From Pirellulales bacterium (GTDB lineage Bacteria; Planctomycetota; Planctomycetia; Pirellulales; Lacipirellulaceae): 64,000 nt of DNA. The position numbers and the translations under genes are program-made. The notes below the pieces were generated by a model. It worked only from the letters and a program-made list of their open reading frames with translations. It searched no databases and was not told the DNA's origin. Positions 50,968 to 64,000 of this stretch are shown here, piece after piece; positions within the stretch are counted from its first letter, which is position 1; every line of letters starts with the position of its first letter. The stretch spans positions 558,001 to 622,000 of the forward strand of contig JAHBXQ010000003.1 in assembly GCA_019636345.1 (NCBI GenBank). The letters are read 5' to 3'.

Positions 50968-51897
50968 CTACTTCGACAGGATCTCGACGACCCCGTCGCC
51001 GGGGCGAAAGGTGTCGCCGGCGCGGCGGCCGAGTTGGTTGCCGCGGACGGCGGCGGCTTGGGCGGCCAGAAATCTCGCGGCGGGCGAAGCGCCGCGGGCG
51101 ATCAGGTCGGCAAGTCCGCGCTCGGCCGCGTCGAGATCGCCTCGCTCGAACGCAGCCAGCGCCGCGGCGTAGCGTTCGATGTCGTCACGCACCCGCTGCT
51201 CGTCGGCGGCCCGTTGCACCGCGATCAGCTCCAGCGGTTGTTCCAGCCCGGGGAGCCGCGCCGTGCAGAGGCGGTGGGTGGTGAACTCCCCCGTGAGTCG
51301 CTGTCGCACGGCCGCGGTCGCCACCAGCGGAACGTCGAGCTGCTTGCTGGCCGACTGCACACGGCTGGCGATGTTCATCGCGCTGCCGCGGGGGCCGTAC
51401 TTGAAGCGGCGTCGCGTCCCGGCGTTGCCGACCTGAACGACTCCGGTGTGGATCCCCACGCTCAGTTCCAACGGCAGGCCGATCCGCTCAGTCCAGGTGG
51501 CGGCGATCGCCGGCATCTCTTCGAGCATGGCCAGCCCGGCGCCGCAGGCGAGATCGGCGTGGTGCGGCTGTTCGAGGGGCGCATTCCACATCGCGGCCAG
51601 ACCGTCGCCGTAGTAGTCGACGACCACCCCCTCGTGCCGCAGTACCGCGTCGGAGAGGAGTTCCATAACGTCCCCCAACAGCGCAAAGGCGGTTTCGGGG
51701 GGGAGGCCCTCGGCGATTGCCGTGAACCCGCGCAAGTCGGCGAACAGCATCGTCGCCTCGCACGACCGGCCGGCCAGCAGCTCGGGCTCGCGCAGCAGCC
51801 GCTCGACCGTCGCGGGAGCGAAGGTTTGCTCCAGCAGCACGCGCCAATCGTCGTCGGCGCTACGCAGAACGCGGTTGCGGATGGTCGCGGCGGACAT
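50968..51897 (-). CDS. Class III adenylate/guanylate cyclase
   Basis: 309 residues. Cyclase homology domain with metal-binding Asp54 (ATMLFADLRGFTAIAEGLPP) and Asp98 (VVDYYGDGLAAMWNAPLEQP), followed by GPRGSAMNIASRVQSASKQL with the conserved Asn. It converts ATP (or GTP) to a cyclic nucleotide. ATG 51897 is preferred; the frame stays open to 52209 and could add ~104 Arg-rich residues, which look unlike a domain. It is divergent to the redox genes below, one of which carries cyclic-nucleotide-binding domains. Confidence 0.88.
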   Translation of the reverse strand: MSAATIRNRVLRSADDDWRVLLEQTFAPATVERLLREPELLAGRSCEATMLFADLRGFTAIAEGLPPETAFALLGDVMELLSDAVLRHEGVVVDYYGDGLAAMWNAPLEQPHHADLACGAGLAMLEEMPAIAATWTERIGLPLELSVGIHTGVVQVGNAGTRRRFKYGPRGSAMNIASRVQSASKQLDVPLVATAAVRQRLTGEFTTHRLCTARLPGLEQPLELIAVQRAADEQRVRDDIERYAAALAAFERGDLDAAERGLADLIARGASPAARFLAAQAAAVRGNQLGRRAGDTFRPGDGVVEILSK

Positions 51898-52231
51898 AGT
51901 GCGTGGCAATTCCAGGGAGCGATTCCAGGAATACCGGCGAGCCCAGGCGTCCTCGTCCGGGGCGACTCGACCGTTTCCAACCAAGTATCCGTCGCCCCTG
52001 TCGGCCACGGGGGCGGAACCCGACGGCCGGCGCCCAGAAGCCCGGCGCGGCGCCGGCAACGTCGACGCGACCCGCACCATCGGAACAGGGCGAGCGAGAC
52101 CGGGGCCAAGGGGCCGGCGCGGTCGATGGGGGCGAGAGACGGACGGTGCGGCCGCCGTTGCGAGCATTGCGCTGCTGCGATCCTTTCGCCGTCTCCTTGG
52201 CGCCCACAATCAAACGACCCCCGTCCCTGCG

Positions 52232-53491
52232 ATGTCCCTCGACGCCTCGACTGTGAGCATGCTGACCGGCGCCGCGATGCTCGGCGGGGCGACGCTTCGC
52301 GTCGCCGGCGAGGCGACGAAGCTCTGGCTCCGCGAACGGAGCGCCGCGGCGTCGACCGAACAGCGGCGCGATCGGTTCGCCGACCGACTGGATGCCGCGC
52401 TGGCCGTCGCTCGGGCGGGCAACCCCGCGTTCAAGGCGTGGGTCGGCACGCGCAGCTTTCGCGTCTCGGCGGTCGTCGAGGAGACCCGCGACTGTCGCAG
52501 CTACTACCTGATTCCTGAGGACGGTCGGTCCTTGCCGCGGTTCGCCCCGGGACAGTACCTGACGTTCCATCTGCCGACGTCGCCGCACGAGCCGCCGACG
52601 GTGCGGTGTTACTCGCTCTCCGAGCGGCCGCGGGACGACTACTACCGCGTAACGGTGCGACGCGTGCCGGCGCCCGCCGACCGGCCGGATCTGTCGCCGG
52701 GGCGGGCGAGTTGTTATTTTCACCGCGAGGTCCACGCCGGCTCGCGGCTTGAGGTCGAGGCCCCGCAGGGCGCGTTCTTTCTCGACCCCGCCGACGAGGC
52801 GCCGGTGGTGCTCGTCGGCGCGGGAATCGGCGTGACGCCGGTGCTCAGCATGGCCGCGGCGCTGGCGTACGCGCAGGACCCGCGGGAGGCGTATGTTTTC
52901 GCCGGCTTTCGCAACAGCCGCGAGCATCCGTTTCGCACGCGGCTGGCCGACTTGGCTCGGCAGTCCCCCCGATTGCGGCTCCACACGGTCTACTCGCGCC
53001 CGCTGCCGGTCGATCGTCGCGGACAAGACTTCGACGCCCTGGGGCGGATCGATTTGGCCTGCCTGCAGCGGAATCTGCCGTCGAACAACTTTCGCTATTA
53101 CCTGTGCGGCCCCGGGCCGTTGATGGAGGAGCTCGTCCCCGCGCTCGTCGCCTGGGGCGTGCCGATCGAGCACATCCGCTACGAGGCGTTCGGCCCGGCG
53201 AGCATCCGCGGCTTGGGTTCCGCCACGGCGACCGATCCTTGCACCGTCGAGTTCGTGCGGAGCGGCCGAACTCTGCGGTGGCAGGGCGCCGAGCCGTCGC
53301 TCCTTGCGCTCGCGGAGCAGGGGGGGGTGCGGCTTGAGTCCGGGTGCCGTGCGGGGAGCTGCGGGCAGTGCCGCGTCGCGCTGTTGGCGGGGCGGGTCGA
53401 ACATGCCAAACCGCCGGGCGTCGAACTGCTCGACGGCGAATGCCTCGCCTGCATCGCCCGCCCGGCCGGGGACGTCACGATCGACGCGTGA
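52232..53491 (+). CDS. FAD/2Fe-2S oxidoreductase (ferredoxin-NAD(P) reductase type)
   Basis: 419 residues. FAD motif RCYSLSERP (residues 125-133), NAD(P) motif VGAGIGVTPVLSMAAALAY (195-213), and CGPGPLMEELVPALVAWG (292-309). The C-terminal plant-type ferredoxin domain has Cys372, 377, 380 and 407 (GCRAGSCGQCR and GECLACIARP). It should pass electrons between NAD(P)H and a one-electron partner. The first ~40 residues are hydrophobic-leaning (TVSMLTGAAMLGGATLRVAG) and may touch the membrane. It starts the row of redox genes to 59388. Confidence 0.88.
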   Translation: MSLDASTVSMLTGAAMLGGATLRVAGEATKLWLRERSAAASTEQRRDRFADRLDAALAVARAGNPAFKAWVGTRSFRVSAVVEETRDCRSYYLIPEDGRSLPRFAPGQYLTFHLPTSPHEPPTVRCYSLSERPRDDYYRVTVRRVPAPADRPDLSPGRASCYFHREVHAGSRLEVEAPQGAFFLDPADEAPVVLVGAGIGVTPVLSMAAALAYAQDPREAYVFAGFRNSREHPFRTRLADLARQSPRLRLHTVYSRPLPVDRRGQDFDALGRIDLACLQRNLPSNNFRYYLCGPGPLMEELVPALVAWGVPIEHIRYEAFGPASIRGLGSATATDPCTVEFVRSGRTLRWQGAEPSLLALAEQGGVRLESGCRAGSCGQCRVALLAGRVEHAKPPGVELLDGECLACIARPAGDVTIDA

Positions 53492-53567
53492 GCGGACGCC
53501 GCCCGAGCGCGCACCGTGACCTAAGCTTGCAAAACTCTCTGCGCGCTGGTTCGTCGGAGCGACCCCT

Positions 53568-54635
53568 ATGACCCGCAAGATCAAACCGTTTCGCGTGATC
53601 GGGGCGATGGCCGCGATTGCGCTGTTGGCGCTGGTGTGCGCGGTCGCCTCCCACGGGGCCGAAGGGGCCTTTCAGGACGAGCAAGGATTCGTCCGTTGCG
53701 ACCCGGCGAAGACCGTGGGCGCCGAGGCCTGTGCGAAGTGCCATCAGAACGAAGTGAACGTGTGGCAGACGACGCCCCACTTCGCCACGTTCGATTCGCT
53801 CCATCGCAAGCCCGAAGCGAAGGCGATCGCCGACAAACTGGGGCTTCGCAGCGTCAAACGCAACGACGTCTGCACGAAGTGCCATTACACATGCCAAGAG
53901 GAAGACGGCCGGCAGCGGATCGTCGCGGGGGTCTCGTGCGAGTCGTGCCACGGCGGGGCCCGTGATTGGATCGACCTCCACGCCGACTACGGCGGACCGA
54001 ACGTGACCAAAGCGATGGAATCGACCGAGCATCGCCAGCAGCGGCTCGCGGCCAGCGTCGCCGCGGGGATGAACAACCCGGCGAATCTGTACCTCGTCGC
54101 CCGGCAGTGCCTGGCGTGCCACACATCGCCGGACGAGAAGCTGGTGAACGTTGGGGGCCACGCCGCGGGGACCAAAGACTTCGAACTGGTCGCGTGGTCG
54201 CAGGGGATGATCCACCACAACTTCCTGGCGAGCGACGGAAAGTCGCTCGTGCCATCGACTCCCGAGCGATTGCGGGTGATGTTCGTCGTCGGCGTGTTGG
54301 CGGACTTGGAAGCGAGTCTGCGCGCCACCGCCGCGGCCACCGAGAAGGCGACCTACGGCGTGACCGCCGCCCAGCGAGCCGCTGCGCAAAAAAAACGCCT
54401 GTACCAAATTGCCGAATTGACCGACAATCCGCAGATCGAGGCGGCCTTGGCGGCGGCCTTGGAGGTGCAGTTGAAGTTGAACAACGGCCCCGCGCTCGTC
54501 GCCGCGGCCGAGACGATCTCGCAAGCTGCGCTCCAGTTCGCCGCGACCGCCGACGGCACGACGCTCGCCGCGCTCGACCCGCTGCTGCCCCCGCCGGCGG
54601 CGTACAAGCGGCAGGCCACGACCGGGAGCCGATGA
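53568..54635 (+). CDS. Tetraheme cytochrome c (cytochrome c554-like)
   Basis: 355 residues. Signal peptide or anchor (VIGAMAAIALLALVCAVASH). Four heme motifs: CAKCH (Cys55-His59), CTKCH, CESCH and CLACH. The spacing and the text around them (VGAEACAKCHQNEVNVWQTT, VSCESCHGGARDWIDLHADY) match the c554 family (PF13435-like). Periplasmic electron carrier. It follows the FAD/2Fe-2S gene by 76 bp. Confidence 0.9.
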   Translation: MTRKIKPFRVIGAMAAIALLALVCAVASHGAEGAFQDEQGFVRCDPAKTVGAEACAKCHQNEVNVWQTTPHFATFDSLHRKPEAKAIADKLGLRSVKRNDVCTKCHYTCQEEDGRQRIVAGVSCESCHGGARDWIDLHADYGGPNVTKAMESTEHRQQRLAASVAAGMNNPANLYLVARQCLACHTSPDEKLVNVGGHAAGTKDFELVAWSQGMIHHNFLASDGKSLVPSTPERLRVMFVVGVLADLEASLRATAAATEKATYGVTAAQRAAAQKKRLYQIAELTDNPQIEAALAAALEVQLKLNNGPALVAAAETISQAALQFAATADGTTLAALDPLLPPPAAYKRQATTGSR

Positions 54636-54761
54636 GCGGACCGCGCGAGCCGCCGGCGCCGCACGCGACGGGCCTCAAGCAATCAACCTTCCTTGCTCGC
54701 CGGGATTGAGTGCGCCGCCAAGCGCTCGCTGCCCGTCGCCGCACACTCCTCCCTCCCGGCC

Positions 54762-56480
54762 ATGGAAGTCGCCGTCGCTCGCCCGCAGCGTTGGGATCAG
54801 CCGTTCGGAGCCGGGCTGCGCGAGACGGACGTCGAGCACCTGCTCGAGGTCGAGCCGTTCCGTCGGATCGACCCGACCGCATTTCCCCCGTCGTTGCCGC
54901 TCAGCGAGATCCTGCGCAACGACTGCCGGCTCGTTCGCTGCCAGCCGGGGGACGTCGTCGTTCGCGAGGGGGACTACGGCCACAGCGCCTTCGCCGTGCT
55001 TCGCGGCCAGGTTCGGGTGATCGTCGCGGGGCTGGGGAAAGCGCTGCTCGAACGCACGCCGCCTCCTGCGCCGAATTGGCGTTCGTTGCTCGCCGCGGCG
55101 TGGCGCCGACCGCGGCTGCCTGAGATGCGCGACTCGCCCGGGATTTCCCCCAACGACGTCCGCTTGCGGCGCTCCGCGGACGACGCCTCTGCGCCTCTCC
55201 GCGTGTTCGTGCAGGACTTGCCGCGAATCCTCCAGGGAACCAACTCGGTCGTTTTGGGCGTCGGCGAGATGTTCGGCGAGCTCGCCGCCTTGACCCGCAG
55301 CCAGCGGACCGCCACGGTGATCGCCGAGGACGACGCGGTTCTGTTGGAGATTCGCTGGCAAGGGCTCCGCGACCTCATGCGGCGGACCGACGAACTGCGG
55401 CGGCACGTCGAGCGGCTGTACCGCGAGAACAGCCTGCGGGTCCACCTGCGCGAAACGCCGCTGTTGGCCGATCTCTCTCCCGAGCAACTCGAGCGCGTCG
55501 CCGACGCGACGGCGTTCGAGACGCACGGCGAGTTCGACTGGCAGAGCACGTACCAAGCGACCGTCGCCCGCCGATTCGGCGACGCGATTGTCGACGAGCC
55601 GTTGATCGCCGAGGAGGGGTTGCCGTGCGACGGGCTCATCCTGATCCGCAACGGTTTCGCTCGGCAGAGCCGCAGCTACGGGGCCGGACACCGCACGACG
55701 GCGTACCTGGGGCGCGGGCAAGCGTTCGGCCTGGGCGAAGCACTCGAAACCGCCGCCGGCCTGCCGACTGCGTGGGACTCCTCGCTTCGGGCGTTGGGCT
55801 ACGTCGACGTGCTGCGGATCCCGGCGTCGGCGCTTGCGCAACTGGTGCTTCCGTTCGTCTCCTCGGCAAGGGTCGAGACGCTGCTGGCCGAGGCCCAGCA
55901 GAATCGCCGCGCCGCCAGTTGGACCGCGACCCCGGCCGAGCGAGTCGATCAGGGGCTGTTGGAACTGCTCGTCGATCGGCGACTCGTGAACGGTCAGCAC
56001 GCCATGCTGATCGATCTCGACCGCTGCACGCGATGCGACGATTGCGTCCGAGCCTGTGCGGCGACCCACGACAACAACCCGCGATTCGTGCGGCAGGGGG
56101 TTCGCCAGGGTCCGTTCATGGCGGCCAACGCGTGCATGCATTGCGTCGACCCGGTCTGCATGATCGGCTGCCCCACCGCGGCCATCCATCGGGATCCGGC
56201 GACCGGCGTGGTGCGGATCGACGACCCGACCTGCATCGGCTGCGCGACGTGCGCCAACAGTTGCCCCTACGAGAACATCCGCATGGTCGAGATCCGCGAC
56301 CGCCGCGGGGCGCTGTACACCGACGAGCAAACGGGCCAGCCGCTCGCCAAAGCGACCAAGTGCGATCTCTGCACGGGTCTGCCCGGCGGCCCGGCGTGCC
56401 AGCGCGCTTGCCCGCACGATGCGCTCCTGCGGTTGGATTTGGGCAACCTGGGCGAACTGTCGCGGTGGGCCTCGCGCTGA
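54762..56480 (+). CDS. Double cyclic-nucleotide-binding domain fused to a four-cluster ferredoxin
   Basis: 572 residues. The first cNBD (residues ~30-210) has the phosphate-binding cassette GEMFGELAALTRSQRTATV with the conserved Glu and Arg, and a ~60-residue insert. A second cNBD-like part (~230-365) is degenerate (GQAFGLGEALE). Residues ~415-555 hold four cluster sites: Cys422-425-428-432, Cys458-461-466-470, Cys491-494-497-501 and Cys534-537-546-550, the DmsB/HybA/NrfC pattern. No signal peptide is seen. ATG 54762 is chosen because an upstream TTG frame lacks support. It suggests a redox subunit controlled by cAMP or a related molecule. Confidence 0.9.
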   Translation: MEVAVARPQRWDQPFGAGLRETDVEHLLEVEPFRRIDPTAFPPSLPLSEILRNDCRLVRCQPGDVVVREGDYGHSAFAVLRGQVRVIVAGLGKALLERTPPPAPNWRSLLAAAWRRPRLPEMRDSPGISPNDVRLRRSADDASAPLRVFVQDLPRILQGTNSVVLGVGEMFGELAALTRSQRTATVIAEDDAVLLEIRWQGLRDLMRRTDELRRHVERLYRENSLRVHLRETPLLADLSPEQLERVADATAFETHGEFDWQSTYQATVARRFGDAIVDEPLIAEEGLPCDGLILIRNGFARQSRSYGAGHRTTAYLGRGQAFGLGEALETAAGLPTAWDSSLRALGYVDVLRIPASALAQLVLPFVSSARVETLLAEAQQNRRAASWTATPAERVDQGLLELLVDRRLVNGQHAMLIDLDRCTRCDDCVRACAATHDNNPRFVRQGVRQGPFMAANACMHCVDPVCMIGCPTAAIHRDPATGVVRIDDPTCIGCATCANSCPYENIRMVEIRDRRGALYTDEQTGQPLAKATKCDLCTGLPGGPACQRACPHDALLRLDLGNLGELSRWASR

Positions 56481-56556
56481 AGTTCGCCGTGCGGCCTGCG
56501 CACCGCGACTCGCTGCCGCCCTCGCCTTCGCCGCGGCGGCAAAAACCGGTACGCTA

Positions 56557-56581
56557 GCGACCCGCGGTTCGGGCGGGTCGC
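56557..56581 (+). promoter_or_regulatory. Hairpin over the start region of the cytochrome b gene
   Basis: GCGACCCGC (56557-56565) pairs perfectly with GCGGGTCGC (56573-56581), ending 3 bases before GTG 56585. It would hide a ribosome-binding site there. Either it regulates translation or the true start is ATG 56639. Confidence 0.45.
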
Positions 56582-56584
56582 GCG

Positions 56585-57463
56585 GTGACGACCACGGCGC
56601 TCGAACCTTGTCGCGCCTGCGCCCCGCCGTTGCCCCCGATGCGCTACTTCGTTCGCCGCCGATTGACCAACGCCGCCGTGACGCTGGCGGCGCTGGGGCT
56701 CGTGACGTGGCAAACCCGCCGGCTGGAATTGGCGCTGCGCCCCTCGGCGTTCTTCACGGGTTGGATCCTGCTGGCGATCGTGGCGTTCTGTGCGCTCTAC
56801 AACATACGCAAACGGTTCCCTGCGCTTCCGATCGGCTCGAGCGCCGCGTGGTTGCAGGGGCACGTCTATGCGGCGCTGGCGTCGGCCGGCGTGCTGGCGC
56901 TGCACGCCCCGCTGCGTTGGCCGAACGGCTGGCTCGAGGGGACGCTGTTCGCCCTCTACGCGGCGACCATGCTCAGCGGCGCGGTCGGCCTGTACTGGAC
57001 CCGCACGTTGCCCCGCCGCTTGAGCCGCGTCAGCGAGGAAGTGATCTACGAACGCATCCCGATGCTTCGCGGGCAACTGCGCGACCGCGCCCACAACGCG
57101 GTTCTTACGGCCGTAAAGACCGCCGGGGCGACGACCCTGGGCGAGTTCTACCGCGATCGGCTGCACGACTTTTTCGAGCGCCGCCGCGGGTGGGGATACC
57201 GGCTCTATCCCACGATGACCCGCCGCAAGCTGCTGTTGGCCGAGCTGACCGAGGCGACCCGCTACTTCACCGACGCCGAGCGCGAGATCGCCGAGCACCT
57301 GTTCTCGCTGGTGCGGCGGCGCGACGAACTCGACTTTCACGAATCGCTGCAGTGGCGCCTGCGAGCGTGGTTGTTCGTCCACATCGGCCTGACGTTGCCG
57401 CTGCTGCTGACCGCGGCGCTGCATGCCTGGCTGGCCCACGCGTACGACGGGAGCGGCGCGTGA
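56585..57463 (+). CDS. Predicted diheme cytochrome b membrane protein
   Basis: 292 residues with about five membrane helices (~29-47, 57-75, 90-108, 118-138, 262-286). Two helices carry H-x13-H: His93 and His107 (GHVYAALASAGVLALH) and His266 and His280 (VHIGLTLPLLLTAALH), the pattern for two b-type hemes stacked across the membrane. Between helices 4 and 5 is a ~120-residue soluble part. Starts at GTG 56585, or ATG 56639 (residue 19). It overlaps the decaheme gene by 4 bases. Likely passes electrons across the membrane. Confidence 0.8.
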   Translation: MTTTALEPCRACAPPLPPMRYFVRRRLTNAAVTLAALGLVTWQTRRLELALRPSAFFTGWILLAIVAFCALYNIRKRFPALPIGSSAAWLQGHVYAALASAGVLALHAPLRWPNGWLEGTLFALYAATMLSGAVGLYWTRTLPRRLSRVSEEVIYERIPMLRGQLRDRAHNAVLTAVKTAGATTLGEFYRDRLHDFFERRRGWGYRLYPTMTRRKLLLAELTEATRYFTDAEREIAEHLFSLVRRRDELDFHESLQWRLRAWLFVHIGLTLPLLLTAALHAWLAHAYDGSGA

Positions 57464-59388
57464 GGTTCACGCTCAACAACCTCGAAGACTCGCCGTACGA
57501 TCGGCCGCATCAGCCGTGGCGGTGCGGGCTGTCGCACGAAGGAGAGCCGTGCCCGGCGGGCCCGACGGACCGCGGGGCGTGCCCCGGCGCCTCGGCCTGC
57601 CGGCCCGTGCGCGACGGCGATCGGTGGCTCTGCAATCGCAGCCCCCTGCGCGGCGGGCCGTGTTCCGAGGGCCCCGGCCCGCAGGGGGAGTGCGCGATCG
57701 CGTATCGCTGCACCCCGTTTCGCTCGCTCCGTTCGCGACGAGGGCAGCTCGTCTCCGCGGCGGCCGTGGCGGCGCTGGGGGCGCTCTTGATCCTGCTGGC
57801 GGCCGACTGGCGGCGCGAGGCGATCGCCCCCGGGCCGTTGTCGGTTCATCACGCCCAGTTGCTCACAGGCGCGCGTGCGGCCGAGCGGTGCGCGGCATGC
57901 CACGCTGCCGGCGGGGGGCTGATCGTGCCGGCGTCGGCCGCGGCGGGGATCGCCGGAGCGGCCGCCGCGCCGACGCAAACCGCGCTCTGCATGGCGTGTC
58001 ACGACAAGCGCCTCGCCCCGCAGCACGCAACCGCGGCCCATACGCTCGACCCGGTCTCGCTGCCGCGGGCTGTCGGCGGCGCCCCGCGCCGCGATCCCGA
58101 CGAGCCGATCGCCTGCAGCGCATGCCACCGCGAACACCAAGGGCGCGATCACGACCTGAGGGCGATCGCCGGCGCCGCCTGCCAAGCATGTCATGCCGTG
58201 CGCTACGACAGCTTCGCCGGCGCCCACCCCGAGTTCGCCGATTGGCCCTACAGGCGTCGCACGCGGATCGCGTTCGACCACGGCTCGCACCACGCGAAGC
58301 ACTATCCCGAACAGCGGCGCGAGTTCGCCTGCGCCGCCTGCCACCAGCTCGACTCCGCCGGCGGTCGGATGACGACTCACGGTTACGACGCTGCCTGCCG
58401 CGAGTGCCACGACGCGGGGATCGCCACGAGCCTGGCGCCGGGGATCGCCGTGTTCGCCCTGCCGACGCTCGACGTCGACGCCTTGGCCGAAGCGGGGCAC
58501 GACGTCGGCGATTGGCCCGACGACGCCCAGGGCGATTTCGACGGCCCGCTCTCCCCGGCGGCCAAGCTGCTCGTCGCGGCCGACCCCCAAGGGGCGGCCG
58601 GGTTGGCCGTGTTGGGGCCGCGGTTCGATTTCTACGACCTCGATCCCGAGGACGACAAGCAACTCGCCGCGGCGGCGCAGGTCGTCGGGGCGTACAAGCG
58701 AGCGCTCGGCCAGATGGCGGCAGGCGGCACGGTCGAAGCCCTCGTCCCCGGCTTGGCGCCCGCAGCCGCGCGGGCTTGGCTCGCGCGACTTCTTCCTGAC
58801 GCCGTCGCGCCCGACTCCGTCCCTGCGGCCGCGACCTCTGCGACCGACCTCCCGGCCGCGCGCGCCCTCGGCCCGCTCGGCGCCTGGGAGTTCGACGACG
58901 CGGCGCTCGTCATCCGCTACCGCGCGAGCGGCCATGCCGACGCCGCGCTCGTCGCGTGGTTCGAGGCCCTCGCGGCCGCCGCCAGCGACGACCGCGCTGC
59001 GCTGGCCGACCCGCTTCTCCGTGATCTCGTCAAGCCGACCGCCCCGGGCCAATGCGGCAGTTGCCATAGTCTGGAGCGCGACCCCGCGGGCAGGCTGGCG
59101 GTGCAGTGGCGAGCCGACCAGGGCCAGCGCACCGGCGCCGCGTCCCTCACCCGCTTCTCGCACGCTCCCCACATGACCCAACCCGAGCTGCGCGATTGCC
59201 AAGCCTGCCATCAACTCGCCGCCGGCGTCGCGACGACCAGCTACGCCCACGACGACCCGACGGCCTTCACCCCCGGCTTCGCCCCGCTCGCCAAGGCCGA
59301 CTGCGCCGCCTGCCATCGCCCCCAAGCCGCAGGCAGCAGTTGCACGCAGTGCCATCGATATCACGGCAGCGCGAGTCGGTCACCGTGA
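57460..59388 (+). CDS. Membrane-anchored decaheme cytochrome c with duplicated four-Cys N-terminal motif
   Basis: 642 residues, starting at GTG 57460 with GGGAG about 6 bases upstream and a 4-base overlap with the cytochrome b gene. Residues 1-90 hold eight Cys in two copies of W-x-C-x8/9-C-x2-G-P-x3-G-x-C-x5-C (Cys22, 31, 41, 47 and Cys58, 68, 78, 84). A membrane helix (~96-115) follows. Outside, ten CxxCH motifs are present (CAACH, CMACH, CSACH, CQACH, CAACH, CRECH, CGSCH, CQACH, CAACH, CTQCH), so ten c hemes. Predicted to pass electrons between the membrane b hemes and periplasm. Confidence 0.88.
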   Translation: MRFTLNNLEDSPYDRPHQPWRCGLSHEGEPCPAGPTDRGACPGASACRPVRDGDRWLCNRSPLRGGPCSEGPGPQGECAIAYRCTPFRSLRSRRGQLVSAAAVAALGALLILLAADWRREAIAPGPLSVHHAQLLTGARAAERCAACHAAGGGLIVPASAAAGIAGAAAAPTQTALCMACHDKRLAPQHATAAHTLDPVSLPRAVGGAPRRDPDEPIACSACHREHQGRDHDLRAIAGAACQACHAVRYDSFAGAHPEFADWPYRRRTRIAFDHGSHHAKHYPEQRREFACAACHQLDSAGGRMTTHGYDAACRECHDAGIATSLAPGIAVFALPTLDVDALAEAGHDVGDWPDDAQGDFDGPLSPAAKLLVAADPQGAAGLAVLGPRFDFYDLDPEDDKQLAAAAQVVGAYKRALGQMAAGGTVEALVPGLAPAAARAWLARLLPDAVAPDSVPAAATSATDLPAARALGPLGAWEFDDAALVIRYRASGHADAALVAWFEALAAAASDDRAALADPLLRDLVKPTAPGQCGSCHSLERDPAGRLAVQWRADQGQRTGAASLTRFSHAPHMTQPELRDCQACHQLAAGVATTSYAHDDPTAFTPGFAPLAKADCAACHRPQAAGSSCTQCHRYHGSASRSP

Positions 59389-59432
59389 GCGGTGCGCCAG
59401 CAGTGAGCGGCCGAGGGACGGGGAGCGTGTCG

Positions 59433-59600
59433 TCATTTTGCCGGCGAGCAAAACTCCATCATTATCTCGTGCAAAACTCCGGGCAGCGGGGCGGGGGAGA
59501 CTTTGCCGAACGTGTTGGGGGCCAACGTCTTGCGCGCCGGGACGCCGATCGCGGGGCGGCTGATTTTGCTGGCAAAACTCGCGGCGGGCGAGCAAAACTC
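59433..59600. repeat. GCAAAACTC short repeat cluster
   Basis: GCAAAACTC at 59447, 59471, 59572 and 59592. Two copies are preceded by TTTTGC, forming palindromes (ATTTTGCCGGCGAGCAAAAC near 59433, and TTTTGCTGGCAAAA near 59564). No gene lies in the cluster. Confidence 0.65.
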
Positions 59601-59772
59601 GCGCCCCGTCGCGGGTCGTCGCGGGTCGTTTTCCACGCGCGACGGCGTCGTGGGCGACGGCGAATCGCGCGGCTGGCAGGATCTGTTCTACGCGATGCGG
59701 CGGCCCATTTTCTAGCGGAATCCTGCGGGGAATTGAGGGGACGATTCCGGCCTTGTCGCGCCCCCCAGGGTA

Positions 59773-59796
59773 GCACCGGTTGTCCTCAACCGGTGC
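59773..59796. repeat. GCACCGGTTG hairpin repeat
   Basis: GCACCGGTTG and CAACCGGTGC (10 bp) with a TCCT loop. The right half and the following bases, to about 59815, recur at 61996-62034 with about three differences. Confidence 0.7.
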
Positions 59797-59946
59797 GCAA
59801 CCAAGAAGCATCCCTCACCCCCGGCCGGTTCCAACATCACGCGACTGGCCGGTTTTGAAATGCTCGGTGACATCCAAGGAATCCCCTTCAAAGACGGAAT
59901 CCAACTCGAACAAGACGCCGCCTGATTCACGAGCCGTCCACAACTA

Positions 59947-60071
59947 TTGACGCGGCGGCAAAAAGTCCTCTGCGCAGAGGCTAGGCATATGATCTTGTGG
60001 TGTGCTCGAACAGTATGACTCAACATCAAGTGGTGATCGATCGTTGCAACTACTTTTTGCCGCCGCGTCAA
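59947..60071. mobile_element. Perfect 20 bp inverted repeat pair, MITE-like
   Basis: A 20-base arm at 59947-59966 (TTGACGCGGCGGC then AAAAAGT) is perfectly inverted at 60052-60071, 85 bp apart. AACTATTGAC is directly repeated at 59942-59951 and 60070-60079, overlapping the arm ends. The interior has no gene. It may be a small non-autonomous transposon or another palindromic element at the border of the A+T-richer region. Confidence 0.65.
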
Positions 60072-60116
60072 CTATTGACAATATCTCTGGAAAATTGTGG
60101 AGACAGTAATCCACAT

Positions 60117-60674
60117 TCAAGGAATCACGGCCTCGTTGAGCACTTGTGGAATTATCGTCCGCTGATGCCTTGCCTCACTTTCAGCCTCGATGTGCGTCCA
60201 CAGCTCAATCAGGCAACGACATTCCGAGACGGCAATTCTCTCAATTCGGTTCAATAGCCGATTATCTGCGGTGTGGCCGTAAATGAGATAGATGGCCCGC
60301 TGGTATCTAACGTCGACTACGAACCGTGACAGTGTCCTAATATCCTTCCGAATATGCTTGGCCTTAAGCCCCTTGGAGACCTTTACTTCAATGATTGCGG
60401 CATTGCCCCGCATGTCGCCGGGGGTATGCACCAACAAATCGGGTATGCATCTGTCGGCCTCAAGGTCCTTAAGTATCGGGTGGTTCCGCTTGTCTACTTC
60501 ACCGCCTAGGCTGTAGTCACACCCCTCCGGCCATCGCAGCCGCAATTGGTGATATAGCTCATAGCAGTAAACCCGTTCGCGGGACACCGCTGGCCCGCCA
60601 TCAATGGGGAGTAGAAAATAATCAGCGTGGATTGCCTCCGTGGCCGCCGCCAGAATGTCATTTAACTCCCTCAT
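60117..60674 (-). CDS. PD-(D/E)xK nuclease-like protein
   Basis: 185 residues. The core IPDLLVHTPGDMRGNAAIIE followed by VKVSKGLKAKHI has the Asp and E-x-K layout of PD-(D/E)xK nucleases. Codon use is more A+T-rich than upstream genes. The ATG at 60674 has AGGA about 10 bases away. Possibly a restriction-type or mobile-element nuclease. It is divergent to the DUF6602-like gene, 32 bp apart. Confidence 0.65.
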   Translation of the reverse strand: MRELNDILAAATEAIHADYFLLPIDGGPAVSRERVYCYELYHQLRLRWPEGCDYSLGGEVDKRNHPILKDLEADRCIPDLLVHTPGDMRGNAAIIEVKVSKGLKAKHIRKDIRTLSRFVVDVRYQRAIYLIYGHTADNRLLNRIERIAVSECRCLIELWTHIEAESEARHQRTIIPQVLNEAVIP

Positions 60675-60706
60675 GACCACAGTCCTGCAATTCAAGGAGC
60701 GGTAAC

Positions 60707-61207
60707 TTGCCTATCGAAGCCAACGTGCATGCGTACTTCCGCTCGATTTCCTCTGAATTGGCAAGCAAGGCCGACAGAATCCGCCAGTTGATAGGAGATT
60801 CTCATTTTCTATCTGACGGGCACCACAAGGAATACCTACTTCAAAGCGTCTTTGAGCGGTTTCTTCCGGCTGGCTACCTATGCTCCAGAGGGTTCGTCGT
60901 TCGTGACAGCCAATTGAAGATGCGGAGCAAAGAACAGGACTTGCTAATTGTCGATACCAGGAGGCACGCACCGCTGTTCAGAGAATCGGGTGTGATCGTA
61001 ACCTTCCCGGAAAACGTCCGGGCGGTAGTCTCTGTGAAGAGCACCCTTACTTCAGCCGCAGTCGACGACGCACTACAGGGCTTGGCGTCGATCCCAAACA
61101 TTCCTTCGGCAACTCCCTTCTGGCGTGGCGTATTCGGATTCCGATTGGATTCAGCGTGGGAAGCCAAGCCATACATCTTTATTGCACCACGCGCATCCAC
61201 GCTATAG
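60707..61207 (+). CDS. DUF6602-like protein
   Basis: 166 residues, TTG start at 60707 with AAGGAG about 8 bases upstream. Blocks GHHKEYLLQSVFERFLPAGY, SKEQDLLIVDTRRHAPLFRE and ENVRAVVSVKSTLTSAAVDD match the DUF6602 family, nuclease-like. The usual acidic residue before K appears to be Ser (VVSVKS). Function unknown; context suggests defence or mobility. Confidence 0.6.
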   Translation: MPIEANVHAYFRSISSELASKADRIRQLIGDSHFLSDGHHKEYLLQSVFERFLPAGYLCSRGFVVRDSQLKMRSKEQDLLIVDTRRHAPLFRESGVIVTFPENVRAVVSVKSTLTSAAVDDALQGLASIPNIPSATPFWRGVFGFRLDSAWEAKPYIFIAPRASTL

Positions 61208-61535
61208 TGACGAATACAAGATTGATGCCAAACGCGATGGAAATCCAAACTGCCGCCAGCTCGACATGCCGGAATGCCTGAGCCCCTAAGAAATCTGGAA
61301 TCTGCGTCCATTCTCCGGCAAATCTGCCATTGTCAAACTGATCGACTGCTTCGCGATTGATCAATCCGTTCAAGTCGAACTCTCGGTAATGGCTTAGAAT
61401 GGCGAGTTTTCCTAGGCCGGTGGCAAAAGAACAAAGTGGATACGTACCAAGCATCCCGCATAGATTTGATACGAACAGCAAAGCCAACAGGAAATCTAAT
61501 CTGGACGGACGTTGTGATTGATTCACTGTTTGCAT
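61179..61535 (-). CDS. Small two-helix membrane protein
   Basis: 118 residues, with hydrophobic segments LDFLLALLFVSNLCGMLGTY and AAVWISIAFGINLVFVTIAW. Overlaps the DUF6602 gene end by 29 bp on the other strand. No family recognised. It may be part of the acquired cluster. Confidence 0.45.
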   Translation of the reverse strand: MQTVNQSQRPSRLDFLLALLFVSNLCGMLGTYPLCSFATGLGKLAILSHYREFDLNGLINREAVDQFDNGRFAGEWTQIPDFLGAQAFRHVELAAVWISIAFGINLVFVTIAWMRVVQ

Positions 61536-61638
61536 CCTTCACGCATGGCCTTGCGATCGCGCATGACTTTCGGACAGCGGCGGGGCTTGAGTTTACGCGG
61601 CAAAGGGGACAATCGACGATGTTGATTGACTCCGCCCA

Positions 61639-61708
61639 GTCGGGTGGCGCCGACGTGACGCCCGTGCGACTTGCCACGTGCCTCGGTCTTGGTCTATCGC
61701 CACCCGAC
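61639..61708. repeat. GTCGGGTGGCG inverted repeat
   Basis: GTCGGGTGGCG at 61639-61649 is inverted at 61698-61708 (11 bp). Part of a 760 bp gap (61536-62300) that I read as repeat debris; no protein in it has support. Confidence 0.55.
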
Positions 61709-61995
61709 CGGCGCCTCCGCATTGTACCACTCGCCTCCGCGGGATTCTGCCGAAAACGTGGGCCGCGGCATCGTCGAGAATGAACGCAAGGGGCGGCGCG
61801 GCGCCATGAGCGGACGGCGCTAGCCGCCGGTGGACGGTTGGCGCGGCTTGGTGCTTTGACGCGGTCCAGAATGCTTGAGTTGACGTAGCGCGTGATTGCG
61901 CTTCATCGGGGGCTAGCGCCCAATGCCACTCACGTTGGGCTTTGGGACTGCGCGGGGGGGCGGGCTCCGTGCACTCTGCGATTCACAGCCCGTGA

Positions 61996-62104
61996 GTCCT
62001 CAACCGGTGCGCAAGCAAGAAGCATCCCCCCACCGTCGCCCCAACCTGGAGCGCCGCGTGGCAACGGGATGCCTCTTGCGGCTGCGCCGTGGGAGGTTGA
62101 GGAC
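61996..62104. repeat. Large imperfect hairpin of the AACCGGTGC family
   Basis: GTCCTCAACC (61996) is inverted as GGTTGAGGAC (62095-62104), and CAAGAAGCATCCC pairs 12 of 13 with GGGATGCCTCTTG. The left arm is the second copy of the 59782-59815 sequence. Confidence 0.65.
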
Positions 62105-62300
62105 AACCTGGGCTACCCCTGGATCGCCTGGCGCAACGCCTCGGCGACCAGCGTTGCCCATATGTTGCGTAGGGGATTGCCCCCTGAAATTATCAATTCC
62201 CTTGCTTCAACGGGGCTAGCTCTCTCAAAATACGGGGATTGCTTTACGGCCGCAGCGATTGTCGGGTAGGTTCACGCACGGAACACTTGGAGGGCTTCTC

Positions 62301-62900
62301 ATGCGATGGTTACTGGTTGTGTTCGCTATAGCAGCAGGTTGGTCACAAGTTAACGCCGAGGAGACAGAGTCGGTAACGATCCCATTGGAGAAGGTTTGGG
62401 GATTACGCATTCCGAACACTCGCGACTTGACCAGCCTCAATGAGGCAAAAAACAACACGCCCATAATGCTGCCGCTCCTGAAGCACATCCGCGATTCATG
62501 GCAGGATGATCCCGGAGTCGCCGTCAACGGAGTTGACACCGTAGCGTTTCATCAATTCAACAAACACGAATTGGGCAACGAGAAACAGCCCGAACTAACC
62601 AGCGACGCTCCGGTTTCTCTTGTCGTCTTCACTCGTTTTCTTGGTGGTAGCTTGGAACTGGTGGAAATCAATCAACAAGGGCGCACATTCGTAGTCAAGT
62701 ACCGCTTCACTCCGCACGAAGCGGCGGAATCAACTCAACACATCGCGATCATTCCCGTGGGCAAGCTGGGCAAAGGAGAATATTTGGTATGTATCGAACG
62801 GTTGCCAATCGAACGTAAGCTGCGCGAAGCTGGATTCCGAGAACCACCTAAGGAATGGGATAAGCGGATTAGCCGCTCTTTTCGATTCACGGTCAAATGA
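62301..62900 (+). CDS. Secreted protein of unknown function
   Basis: 199 residues. Signal peptide MRWLLVVFAIAAGWSQVNA. ATG 62301 follows GGAGGG. No domain recognised; the body has few Cys and a basic C-terminal part (REPPKEWDKRISRSFRFTVK). The next gene starts 12 bp after, so the two are probably cotranscribed. Confidence 0.7.
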   Translation: MRWLLVVFAIAAGWSQVNAEETESVTIPLEKVWGLRIPNTRDLTSLNEAKNNTPIMLPLLKHIRDSWQDDPGVAVNGVDTVAFHQFNKHELGNEKQPELTSDAPVSLVVFTRFLGGSLELVEINQQGRTFVVKYRFTPHEAAESTQHIAIIPVGKLGKGEYLVCIERLPIERKLREAGFREPPKEWDKRISRSFRFTVK

Positions 62901-62912
62901 CGGAGCGTAGTA

Positions 62913-64000
62913 ATGAGAACCTTGGTTTGCGTGCTTGCATTGCTGATCGGCGCACAAAATCACGCAGAAGCAAGCTCAGAAAGCGTTGGCCCCAATGGTA
63001 TCAAATCGATCGGGCTCATGCGGCCCGACGGCGAAGTATTGACGGGTGCGGGGGTCAATATCGGCCAAGTTGAACCTGATCGGGTGCCGTTGCGGGGTAC
63101 CGATGACGATGACGAGTCAAATCAATTTGTAGCCCCAACAACGACCGTCACGAAGGCGGGTATCGCGCCAACGCCGAACCTCGATATTTCCACGCTTATG
63201 TACCATTCGCTTTCTGTGGCGGGGGTAATGATCGGGAAAGACGACGCACCGAAAAGCGTGTCGTCAAATGCCGGCTTGCATTCCTCTGGTTTTGTGGATC
63301 CAGGAATCTCGCCTGGGTATAGCGAAGTGATTATCACTACGCAATACCTAGCCAAACTGTTTCCACAAGGAACGCAGCAACAGATTCGAGCCATTAACCA
63401 TAGTTGGGGGAAATTACCCCTCAACGCAAACGTTGCACCTGATGGCAATTCGTTGGTGACTCTCGGACTAGATTGGATTGCTCAAAGATTCGATGTTCTT
63501 AATGTTGTCGCAGGCGTTCAGGACTCTACCGGGCAACGACTCCCCTCTGATAATTTCAATGGCGTTACAGTCGCCCGCTCGGAACAAGTGAACGGCGTAT
63601 TTCTTCAGGTCGAATCCGGAAACGACAACGAGGGGTATGATGACGCCGAAGGCAGTAGAGTGTCGGTGGACCTCCTGGCGCCTGGGGTTGACATTGCTGT
63701 GCCAAGCAACGGCGCGACAAACCCCAACACTACCAGAACTGGCACTAGTTTTGCTGCTCCGCACGTTACCGGCGTTGTCGCACTGCTTCACGAATTTGCT
63801 AATTTCCAAATCGACGATGCTCCCCGCTGGGATTCTTCAAATGCTCGACGACACGAAGTGATTAAGGCTGTTTTGCTAAACTCTGCGGACAAACTTGCGG
63901 GCGTTCATGGATCAGCCAGGACAGTTCTGGACAATCTGGGAAGAAACTGGACAGAGACTGATGCGTTCTCGAATGATCAGATGTCGCTGGACAGTCAGAT
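62913..64000 (+). CDS. Subtilase (S8)-like secreted protein, cut by window end
   Basis: At least 362 residues. Signal peptide MRTLVCVLALLIGAQNHAEA. The serine motif is GTSFAAPHVTG, in a clear S8 context (VDLLAPGVDIAVPSNGATNP). The His motif may be YHSLSVAGVMIG. The Asp motif seems to be GVNIGQVEPDR, with Glu at the catalytic position. It may be a diverged or inactive protease. GGAG lies ~8 bases before ATG 62913. Confidence 0.75.
   Translation, partial: MRTLVCVLALLIGAQNHAEASSESVGPNGIKSIGLMRPDGEVLTGAGVNIGQVEPDRVPLRGTDDDDESNQFVAPTTTVTKAGIAPTPNLDISTLMYHSLSVAGVMIGKDDAPKSVSSNAGLHSSGFVDPGISPGYSEVIITTQYLAKLFPQGTQQQIRAINHSWGKLPLNANVAPDGNSLVTLGLDWIAQRFDVLNVVAGVQDSTGQRLPSDNFNGVTVARSEQVNGVFLQVESGNDNEGYDDAEGSRVSVDLLAPGVDIAVPSNGATNPNTTRTGTSFAAPHVTGVVALLHEFANFQIDDAPRWDSSNARRHEVIKAVLLNSADKLAGVHGSARTVLDNLGRNWTETDAFSNDQMSLDSQ

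Follow-up and report, generated by a model that had tools for sequence, protein, structure and literature searches.

A conserved planctomycete locus that may encode an NAD(P)H-fed, cyclic-nucleotide-gated electron conduit across the cell envelope

We describe a locus of six genes in a 64,000-nucleotide stretch of DNA, the window (G000:C3:558001-622000), which is part of a 5.18 Mb planctomycete draft genome. Five genes on the plus strand encode, in this order, a flavin adenine dinucleotide (FAD) and NAD(P)H reductase (RED), a tetraheme cytochrome c (C4), a fusion of two cyclic-nucleotide-binding domains (cNBDs) with a four-cluster ferredoxin (CNBFS), a predicted diheme b membrane protein (MEMB), and a decaheme cytochrome c (C10); a class III nucleotide cyclase is encoded divergently to them. 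An earlier note on this DNA had proposed this gene set, and domain scans and ligand motifs recover all six genes with the content it gave. We read the whole as an NAD(P)H-fed electron conduit that crosses the envelope and is gated by a cyclic nucleotide, at a probability of about 0.55; a conserved NAD(P)H-linked trans-envelope conduit as such, taken without its gate, we consider likely. Our account starts from what was observed or predicted directly, namely gene content, co-occurrence, ligand conservation, and predicted folds; the order and direction of electron flow, the gating, the acceptor, and the physiological role are what we infer.

In the proposed mechanism, NAD(P)H would reduce FAD and then the 2Fe-2S cluster in RED. 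CNBFS, at the inner membrane face, would take up the electrons with its four [4Fe-4S] clusters and hand them on through both b hemes of MEMB (the inner heme on H93/H266, the outer on H107/H280); from there they would go to the periplasmic decaheme of C10, the tetraheme C4, and a pentaheme cytochrome (PENT) at an outer-membrane barrel (PORIN), with an extracellular or periplasmic acceptor as the final step. Binding of a cyclic nucleotide to the first cNBD of CNBFS would open (or close) the path; in many planctomycetes, the cyclase encoded divergently would supply this nucleotide. Since the flow would run from the negative side of the membrane to the positive one and bypass quinone, the system is better read as a switchable valve for redox overflow or acceptor reduction than as an energy-conserving respiratory complex.

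A path from cytoplasm to periplasm, as first proposed, is well supported by the conservation of cofactor ligands in the redox genes. RED has Pfam FAD, NAD, and 2Fe-2S domains; its residues R125-C126-Y127-S128 and its cluster cysteines 372, 377, 380, and 407 are conserved in 64/64 sequences. It is nearest to flavohemoprotein and PaaE/Hcr-type reductases and falls under the cut-off of every NCBIfam family listed. The ferredoxin part of CNBFS carries 16 cysteines in four motifs, each found in at least 78 of 80 sequences; HydN is the best NCBIfam match of the protein (61.6 bits), the NCBIfam scores shown being far below the cut-offs. MEMB has exactly four invariant histidines (H93, H107, H266, and H280, in 77/77), set in pairs 14 residues apart, one pair in each of two helices (86-107 and 230-286). 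From charge and helix order, the H93/H266 heme would face the cytoplasm and the H107/H280 heme the periplasm. All ten CXXCH motifs of C10 occur in at least 62 of 63 sequences, and further histidines (131, 194, 226, 256, 274, 277, 492, 568, 571, and 635) in 57-63 of 63; in C4, the four CXXCH motifs are present in 67-70 of 70 and His 71, 138, 198, and 217 in 61-70 of 70. The number of extra conserved histidines equals the number of hemes in both proteins: ten in C10 and four in C4.

Two of these proteins belong to families for which the locus suggests a role: MEMB, of a diheme b family that neither Pfam nor NCBIfam lists, and C10, of a decaheme family with eight additional cysteines. The AlphaFold2 model of MEMB is all-helical, with a mean predicted local distance difference test score (pLDDT) of 93.8. 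No Pfam or NCBIfam family matches MEMB at E 0.1, its best E against PDB sequences is 0.31, and Foldseek returns nothing at E 0.001 or better. The top rows of a fold search (VIA) are sensor-domain helical bundles, with no b-type cytochrome among them; the match of the model to SpNOX 8qt6 (Z 6.7, root-mean-square deviation [rmsd] 5.0, 145 aligned) lies within background. C10 has no match at E 1 among PDB sequences. Ahead of its single transmembrane (TM) segment stand cysteines 22, 31, 41, 47, 58, 68, 78, and 84, conserved in 56-60 of 63 sequences, in a part that would be cytoplasmic; TM counts come from a crude hydropathy scan. These cysteines form two four-Cys repeats, C-x8/9-C-x9-C-x5-C, conserved across phyla.

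The donor side is best seen in two related loci, L057 and L060, where CNBFS has a NuoG-like N-terminus and adjoins a fused NuoE-NuoF gene, which replaces RED. Since an unrelated NAD(P)H module has been swapped for RED, the cytoplasmic end would exchange electrons with NAD(P)H; this exchange of modules is our best evidence. A further arrangement occurs in L064, where RED is fused to MEMB. RED carries an FHA domain in L038, L042, and L064; the L064 fusion has a protein kinase gene beside it and no cNBD gene in its vicinity, and the same genome (G071) holds a second, normal locus. The control module may therefore be swappable as well.

The gene neighborhood recurs widely, both in planctomycetes and in other phyla, where the earlier note had advised looking for it. 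Scanning one genome per species with the CNBFS alignment turned up at least 500 relatives; we retained the best 80, a choice biased to close ones. Near CNBFS in these 80 named loci, we find RED in 63, C4 in 71, MEMB in 76, C10 in 74, PENT in 36, PORIN in 35, and the cyclase in 20. Restricting the count to the 36 loci whose two flanks each measure 9 kb or more gives RED 32, C4 32, MEMB 35, C10 35, PENT 18, PORIN 18, and cyclase 10. Presence here means a blastp match at E 1e-4 to a protein of the window or of one Gimesia-type relative, among open reading frames (ORFs) of at least 90 amino acids in the stretch available; 3 of the 4 loci without MEMB stop at or near a contig end, and the fourth is L080 (Bythopirellula polymerisocia), which has some 10 kb to either side. 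Chance adjacency was rejected: the same neighbors recur in most of the 80 loci, and the genes co-occur at the level of genomes. Forty further loci within the phylum were hand-picked from 71 listed places; 3 places are in both sets (L038/L095, L040/L141, and L042/L087), such that the 120 loci represent 117 distinct places. Across the phylum, MEMB is found in 66/392 genomes, many of them through weak, partial matches.

Record titles place the 80 loci in eight phylum-level groups and include Planctomycetota, Verrucomicrobiota, Alpha-, Gamma-, and Zetaproteobacteria, Nitrospinota, Acidobacteria, SAR324, Poribacteria, and Armatimonadetes; many of the records are metagenome-assembled genomes (MAGs), and odd titles may reflect mis-binned MAGs. 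Lacipirellula limnantheis, Adhaeretor mobilis, Ferruginivarius sediminum, and Hwanghaeella grinnelliae are among the named carriers that bring the main parts together at a single locus. The list of carriers bears on a reversed flow, in which an outside donor such as Fe(II) would reduce NAD(P)+ or ferredoxin. Two MAGs with the locus bear names associated with iron oxidation, Mariprofundus and Acidiferrobacter. Many other carriers belong to heterotrophic lineages, and inward transfer to NAD(P)+ would have to proceed uphill and counter to the membrane potential, and nothing is seen that could drive it; we consider such electron import very unlikely.

The outer end of the proposed conduit lies past the window in this genome, where PENT and PORIN are found about 6-10 kb downstream, beyond an island of low guanine-plus-cytosine (GC) content. 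Five 1-kb blocks between C10 and PORIN have a GC of 52-58%, against 66-74% on both sides; the island reaches the window-equivalent position of about 65300 (L161:5001-10000) and holds DUF6602 and subtilase genes. Given the low GC and these genes, an insertion probably split the locus and moved its PENT/PORIN end out of the window. We rejected the view that the system has no acceptor side, and the earlier remark that no terminal enzyme is seen proves in part a window-edge effect, the porin and pentaheme genes standing just past 64000. That note had also named neither donor nor acceptor: the donor is now narrowed to two unrelated NAD(P)H modules found in different lineages, and the acceptor side to a pentaheme and a predicted barrel.

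PENT and MEMB go together at the level of genomes. Among 97 genomes of the order, PENT scores above 300 bits in 11/11 strong MEMB carriers (E <1e-50) and in 1/86 others (Fisher 1.2e-13); at a looser PENT threshold of E 1e-10, the counts are 11/11 and 18/86 (Fisher 3.5e-7). Both tests ignore kinship, and both the 300-bit and the 1e-50 lines were set after the results were seen; 10 of the 11 strong carriers are from one family and hence are not independent events. G475, the sole sampled member of that family without MEMB, is also without PENT, and in G397 and G412, PENT is kept though about 29 and 194 kb from MEMB.

PENT itself has five CXXCH motifs and five other invariant histidines (110, 234, 319, 330, and 451, in 26 sequences). 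Five extra histidines for five hemes suggest six-coordinate hemes, and thus a wire rather than an active site. Its profile matches cytochrome c552 5ze8 (3.2e-16, profile positions 101-302) and, more weakly, MccSep (7.4e-5); against NCBIfam ExtKL (NF040886), the PENT of this genome reaches 27.7 bits and that of L045 22.5, below a cut-off of 250. The N-terminal part of PENT has acidic DDLL/GDLL-like repeats in several phyla (L161:12101-14740, L140, L099, and L128). For PORIN, scans of five sequences against Pfam and of two against NCBIfam gave no family. Modeling of the Ferruginivarius homologue gave a barrel (pLDDT 85), whose best fold matches are the OprD/OccK (Z 28.4, rmsd 2.9, 325 aligned), MOMP, and AlgE porins; the barrel model is of this homologue, and the PORIN of the genome studied here shares no more than 24-26% identity with the Gimesia-type query.

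Gating would act through the first cNBD of CNBFS. The protein matches PF00027 at 83.6 bits (cut-off, 27.5), and in the CNBFS alignment, the first phosphate-binding cassette keeps G172 in 80/80, E173 in 80/80, and R182 in 78/80 sequences, in agreement with the cassette signature of PKG and CRP, FGE..R-T-A-T. With its Glu and Arg invariant or nearly so over 80 sequences, a relic domain would be unexpected, and direct gating by a cyclic nucleotide is plausible, with the balance somewhat in its favor.

The window cyclase is a candidate source of this nucleotide. It matches Guanylate_cyc (PF00211) far above the cut-off of 21.9 bits, and its motifs FADLRGFT, YYGDG, and MNIASR cover the two metal Asp, the Asn, and the Arg of class III cyclases; an Asp stands at the usual substrate-Lys position, which leaves cyclic adenosine monophosphate (cAMP) and cyclic guanosine monophosphate (cGMP) both as candidate products. 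The cyclase does recur near the redox genes of other loci: a cyclase ORF is present in 26/120 loci (40 + 80, with three places counted twice). In 18/120, it lies upstream of CNBFS at a distance of 1.4-3.4 kb and on the opposite strand; of the remaining 8, 2 are on the opposite strand further away, and 6 are on the same strand. A quick tree of the 80 CNBFS rows puts the 14 rows with a divergent cyclase, among the rows that were grouped, on one side of one branch (support 81), a side that holds 23 rows, 9 of them without a cyclase in the available stretch. Across the order, a cyclase lies within 8 kb of MEMB in 6/29 MEMB-positive genomes, against about 0.2 expected from each genome's own cyclase count and size; for strong carriers, the figure is 5/11. 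Partner domains, scanned in 10 of the 26 cyclases plus L039 (L104, L147, L150, and others left out), are varied: FHA in L045 and L044, a sub-threshold GAF in L081, CHASE2 in L132 and L143 (Verrucomicrobia) and L146 (planctomycete), and 7TMR-DISM in L083 (SAR324). The cyclase is thus truly linked to the locus, though not everywhere, and the other loci must make do with a cyclase encoded far away or with none. A universal cyclase partner was not adopted.

Several observations weigh against our reading, and each group of them lends something to a rival. As to the gate, the second cNBD is without the cassette Arg, a cyclase is in the fetched stretch of only 20/80 loci, and 6/11 strong carriers have none within 8 kb of MEMB. 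The same conduit might thus carry its cNBD as a structural or docking domain, or as a sensor of another ligand, with the cyclase serving other targets. The 60/80 loci without a cyclase, the degenerate second cNBD, and the FHA-bearing RED-MEMB fusion of L064, with no cNBD gene nearby (its genome having a normal locus elsewhere), agree with this; the near-invariant first cassette and the recurrence nearby of cyclases with varied partner domains do not, and we hold this rival to be unlikely. The earlier idea of switching by a nucleotide made next door therefore survives in part: the intact first-cNBD signature and the recurring cyclase neighbors support it, and the count of 20/80 argues against it as a general rule.

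As to the inner end, some loci hold only part of the set. Bythopirellula polymerisocia (L080) has RED, C4, CNBFS, and the cyclase, with no MEMB or C10 within the ~10 kb searched on either side. The Rhodopirellula-type loci L108, L115, L145, and L151 keep CNBFS, MEMB, and C10, with RED and C4 not nearby. G278, a genome 96% complete, has C10, MEMB, C4, PORIN, and PENT, and CNBFS and RED were undetectable in a search run without a positive control; the outer part can therefore exist without them. G278 and the four Rhodopirellula-type loci would suit a MEMB that trades electrons with the quinone pool, with RED and CNBFS as one of several inputs. Direct transfer is favored instead by the RED-MEMB fusion and by MEMB standing beside CNBFS in 76/80 loci, so that a quinone-linked MEMB seems to us improbable.

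As to the outer end, 17 genomes of the order that have no strong MEMB still hold a weaker relative of the pentaheme, in some cases a long protein matched in two pieces; the pentaheme family is thus not exclusive to this system. Together with L080, these relatives slightly reduce our confidence in the reading as a whole. No lipobox was found by a simple pattern in 29 pentaheme sequences. An MtrB-type barrel is much larger than one of OprD type, and in a barrel such as the one modeled here, a cytochrome might not fit inside. A soluble acceptor that enters the periplasm is consequently a live rival: the porin would admit a small solute (e.g., an oxyanion), the pentaheme would reduce it, and nothing would leave the cell. 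The OprD/OccK-like fold and the kinship of the pentaheme with c552, and more weakly with MccSep, are consistent with a periplasmic reductase, as is the impaired selenite and tellurite reduction reported upon loss of Geobacter ExtI, which is encoded near the pentaheme ExtKL (PMC5877670). The extra histidines of PENT, equal in number to its hemes, leave no open heme apparent and suggest otherwise; we regard this rival as rather unlikely.

Quinol feeds the known extracellular electron pathways, and their control, to our knowledge, is mainly at the level of expression. We tentatively put forward, at somewhat less than even odds, a different principle, a ligand-gated wire: cAMP or cGMP on the cNBD of a ferredoxin subunit would switch on a flow of electrons from NAD(P)H out across the entire envelope, independent of quinone. 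The donor modules (FAD reductase or NuoEF/G) would be interchangeable, and so would the signaling modules (cNBD with cyclase, or FHA with an adjoining kinase gene, as in L064). If true, this would mean direct use of NAD(P)H and an allosteric second-messenger switch in lineages hardly studied for electron export.

The locus shares features with several known systems. NADPH oxidase and bacterial NOX send electrons from NAD(P)H by way of flavin to a pair of b hemes that bridge the membrane, and some of these enzymes have a regulatory domain; L064, with its RED-MEMB fusion, resembles this. Unlike NOX, the present system inserts Fe-S clusters after the flavin and before the heme, and continues beyond the heme in a multiheme chain. 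HydN/DmsB ferredoxins share the 16-Cys four-cluster pattern and the cNBDs of PKG and CRP share the cassette; here, both are fused in one protein. Mtr/Pcc conduits likewise pair an outer-membrane barrel, here a predicted one, with multiheme cytochromes c. As far as the descriptions at hand go, they have a quinol-fed inner step, a large barrel, and an outer-surface cytochrome, whereas no quinol module or surface cytochrome was identified at this locus (the lipobox check covered the pentaheme only). The outer end may work like porin-cytochrome conduits and the inner end like NADPH oxidase, and we file the system as neither.

The nearest described set is Geobacter extHIJKL(MNOPQS), which, in the portions of the papers used here, brings together a porin, a pentaheme, a decaheme, a b-type cytochrome, and a four-heme c (PMC5877670, PMC6148476). 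It has a Rieske protein and cytochrome b, and these portions mention neither an NAD(P)H module nor a cNBD or a cyclase (PMC5877670, PMC6148476); the likeness was judged from descriptions, not from Geobacter sequences. In cable bacteria, c552 is linked with ExtKL-like and nanowire cytochromes by predicted structure (PMC11976967). Clusters of freshwater Verrucomicrobia (including Opitutus) also combine a porin with multiheme cytochromes c; the porins have at least 20 predicted transmembrane motifs and the cytochrome is octaheme, and the excerpt consulted mentions no cNBD ferredoxin (PMC5615132). The open-licence literature, searched apart from subscription papers and preprints, yielded no paper that describes cNBD, multiheme, and cyclase in combination, which agrees with the earlier note, whose author knew of no described system with this exact set.

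Table 1. Coordinates of the features discussed (window positions unless a locus is named).
Feature	Position	Strand	Basis or remark
Class III nucleotide cyclase, probable true gene	50968..51897	-	PF00211 62 bits; ATG 51897; ORF reaches TTG 52209
RED, FAD/NAD(P)H reductase, C-terminal 2Fe-2S, N-terminal hydrophobic segment	52232..53491	+	PF00970, PF00175, PF00111
C4, periplasmic tetraheme c, c554-like	53568..54635	+	PF13435 (Cytochrome_C554) E 1.3e-16; four CXXCH
CNBFS, cNBD-cNBD-4x[4Fe-4S] ferredoxin	54762..56480	+	PF00027 and Fer4 families; 16 Cys
Phosphate-binding cassette, first cNBD (CNBFS residues 168-188)	55263..55325	+	G172, E173, R182
HydN/DmsB-type four-cluster ferredoxin domain (CNBFS residues 412-560)	55995..56441	+	Domain matches and Cys pattern
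MEMB, diheme b membrane protein	56585..57463	+	Four invariant His; probable true start ATG 56639
C10, decaheme c: N-terminal 8-Cys part, one TM, ten CXXCH	57460..59388	+	Cys and CXXCH conservation
8-Cys double repeat ahead of C10 TM	57496..57741	+	Conserved Cys; predicted cytoplasmic
Mostly low-GC island (DUF6602, subtilase genes), continues beyond window	59389..64000	.	GC profile, domain scan
Porin gene	window-equivalent 65320-67047	-	Homology search past window edge
Pentaheme gene	window-equivalent 67100-69739	-	Homology search past window edge
NuoE-NuoF fusion with NuoG-like/cNBD/ferredoxin fusion	L057:5748-9646; L060:10286-14182		Different NADH input, same core
FHA-reductase-diheme b fusion with decaheme, protein kinase, porin, and tetraheme genes	L064:7678-18797		

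Gaps of 76, 126, and 104 bases separate the first four plus-strand genes, and the last two genes overlap by 4 bases, where the GTG start of C10 meets the MEMB stop; this spacing is as in an operon. For MEMB, the alignment consensus makes the later ATG the more likely start. For the cyclase, ATG 51897 (309 amino acids) is more likely the start, because homology to the five relatives compared begins at ORF residue 123-126. By this locus, the nearest named relatives among the best 80 CNBFS relatives are Lacipirellula, Adhaeretor, and Bythopirellula. Among the viral contigs searched, no relative was confirmed.

The window cyclase is without the N-terminal part of 224-345 amino acids carried by the five divergent relatives compared, and that part has no convincing match anywhere in the window. 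Three members of the family, G443, G458, and G463, have a frame of 921-926 amino acids some 12 kb downstream of MEMB that contains a cyclase-type domain; a frame of the same kind, 958 amino acids long, is found in G000 at C3:472004.

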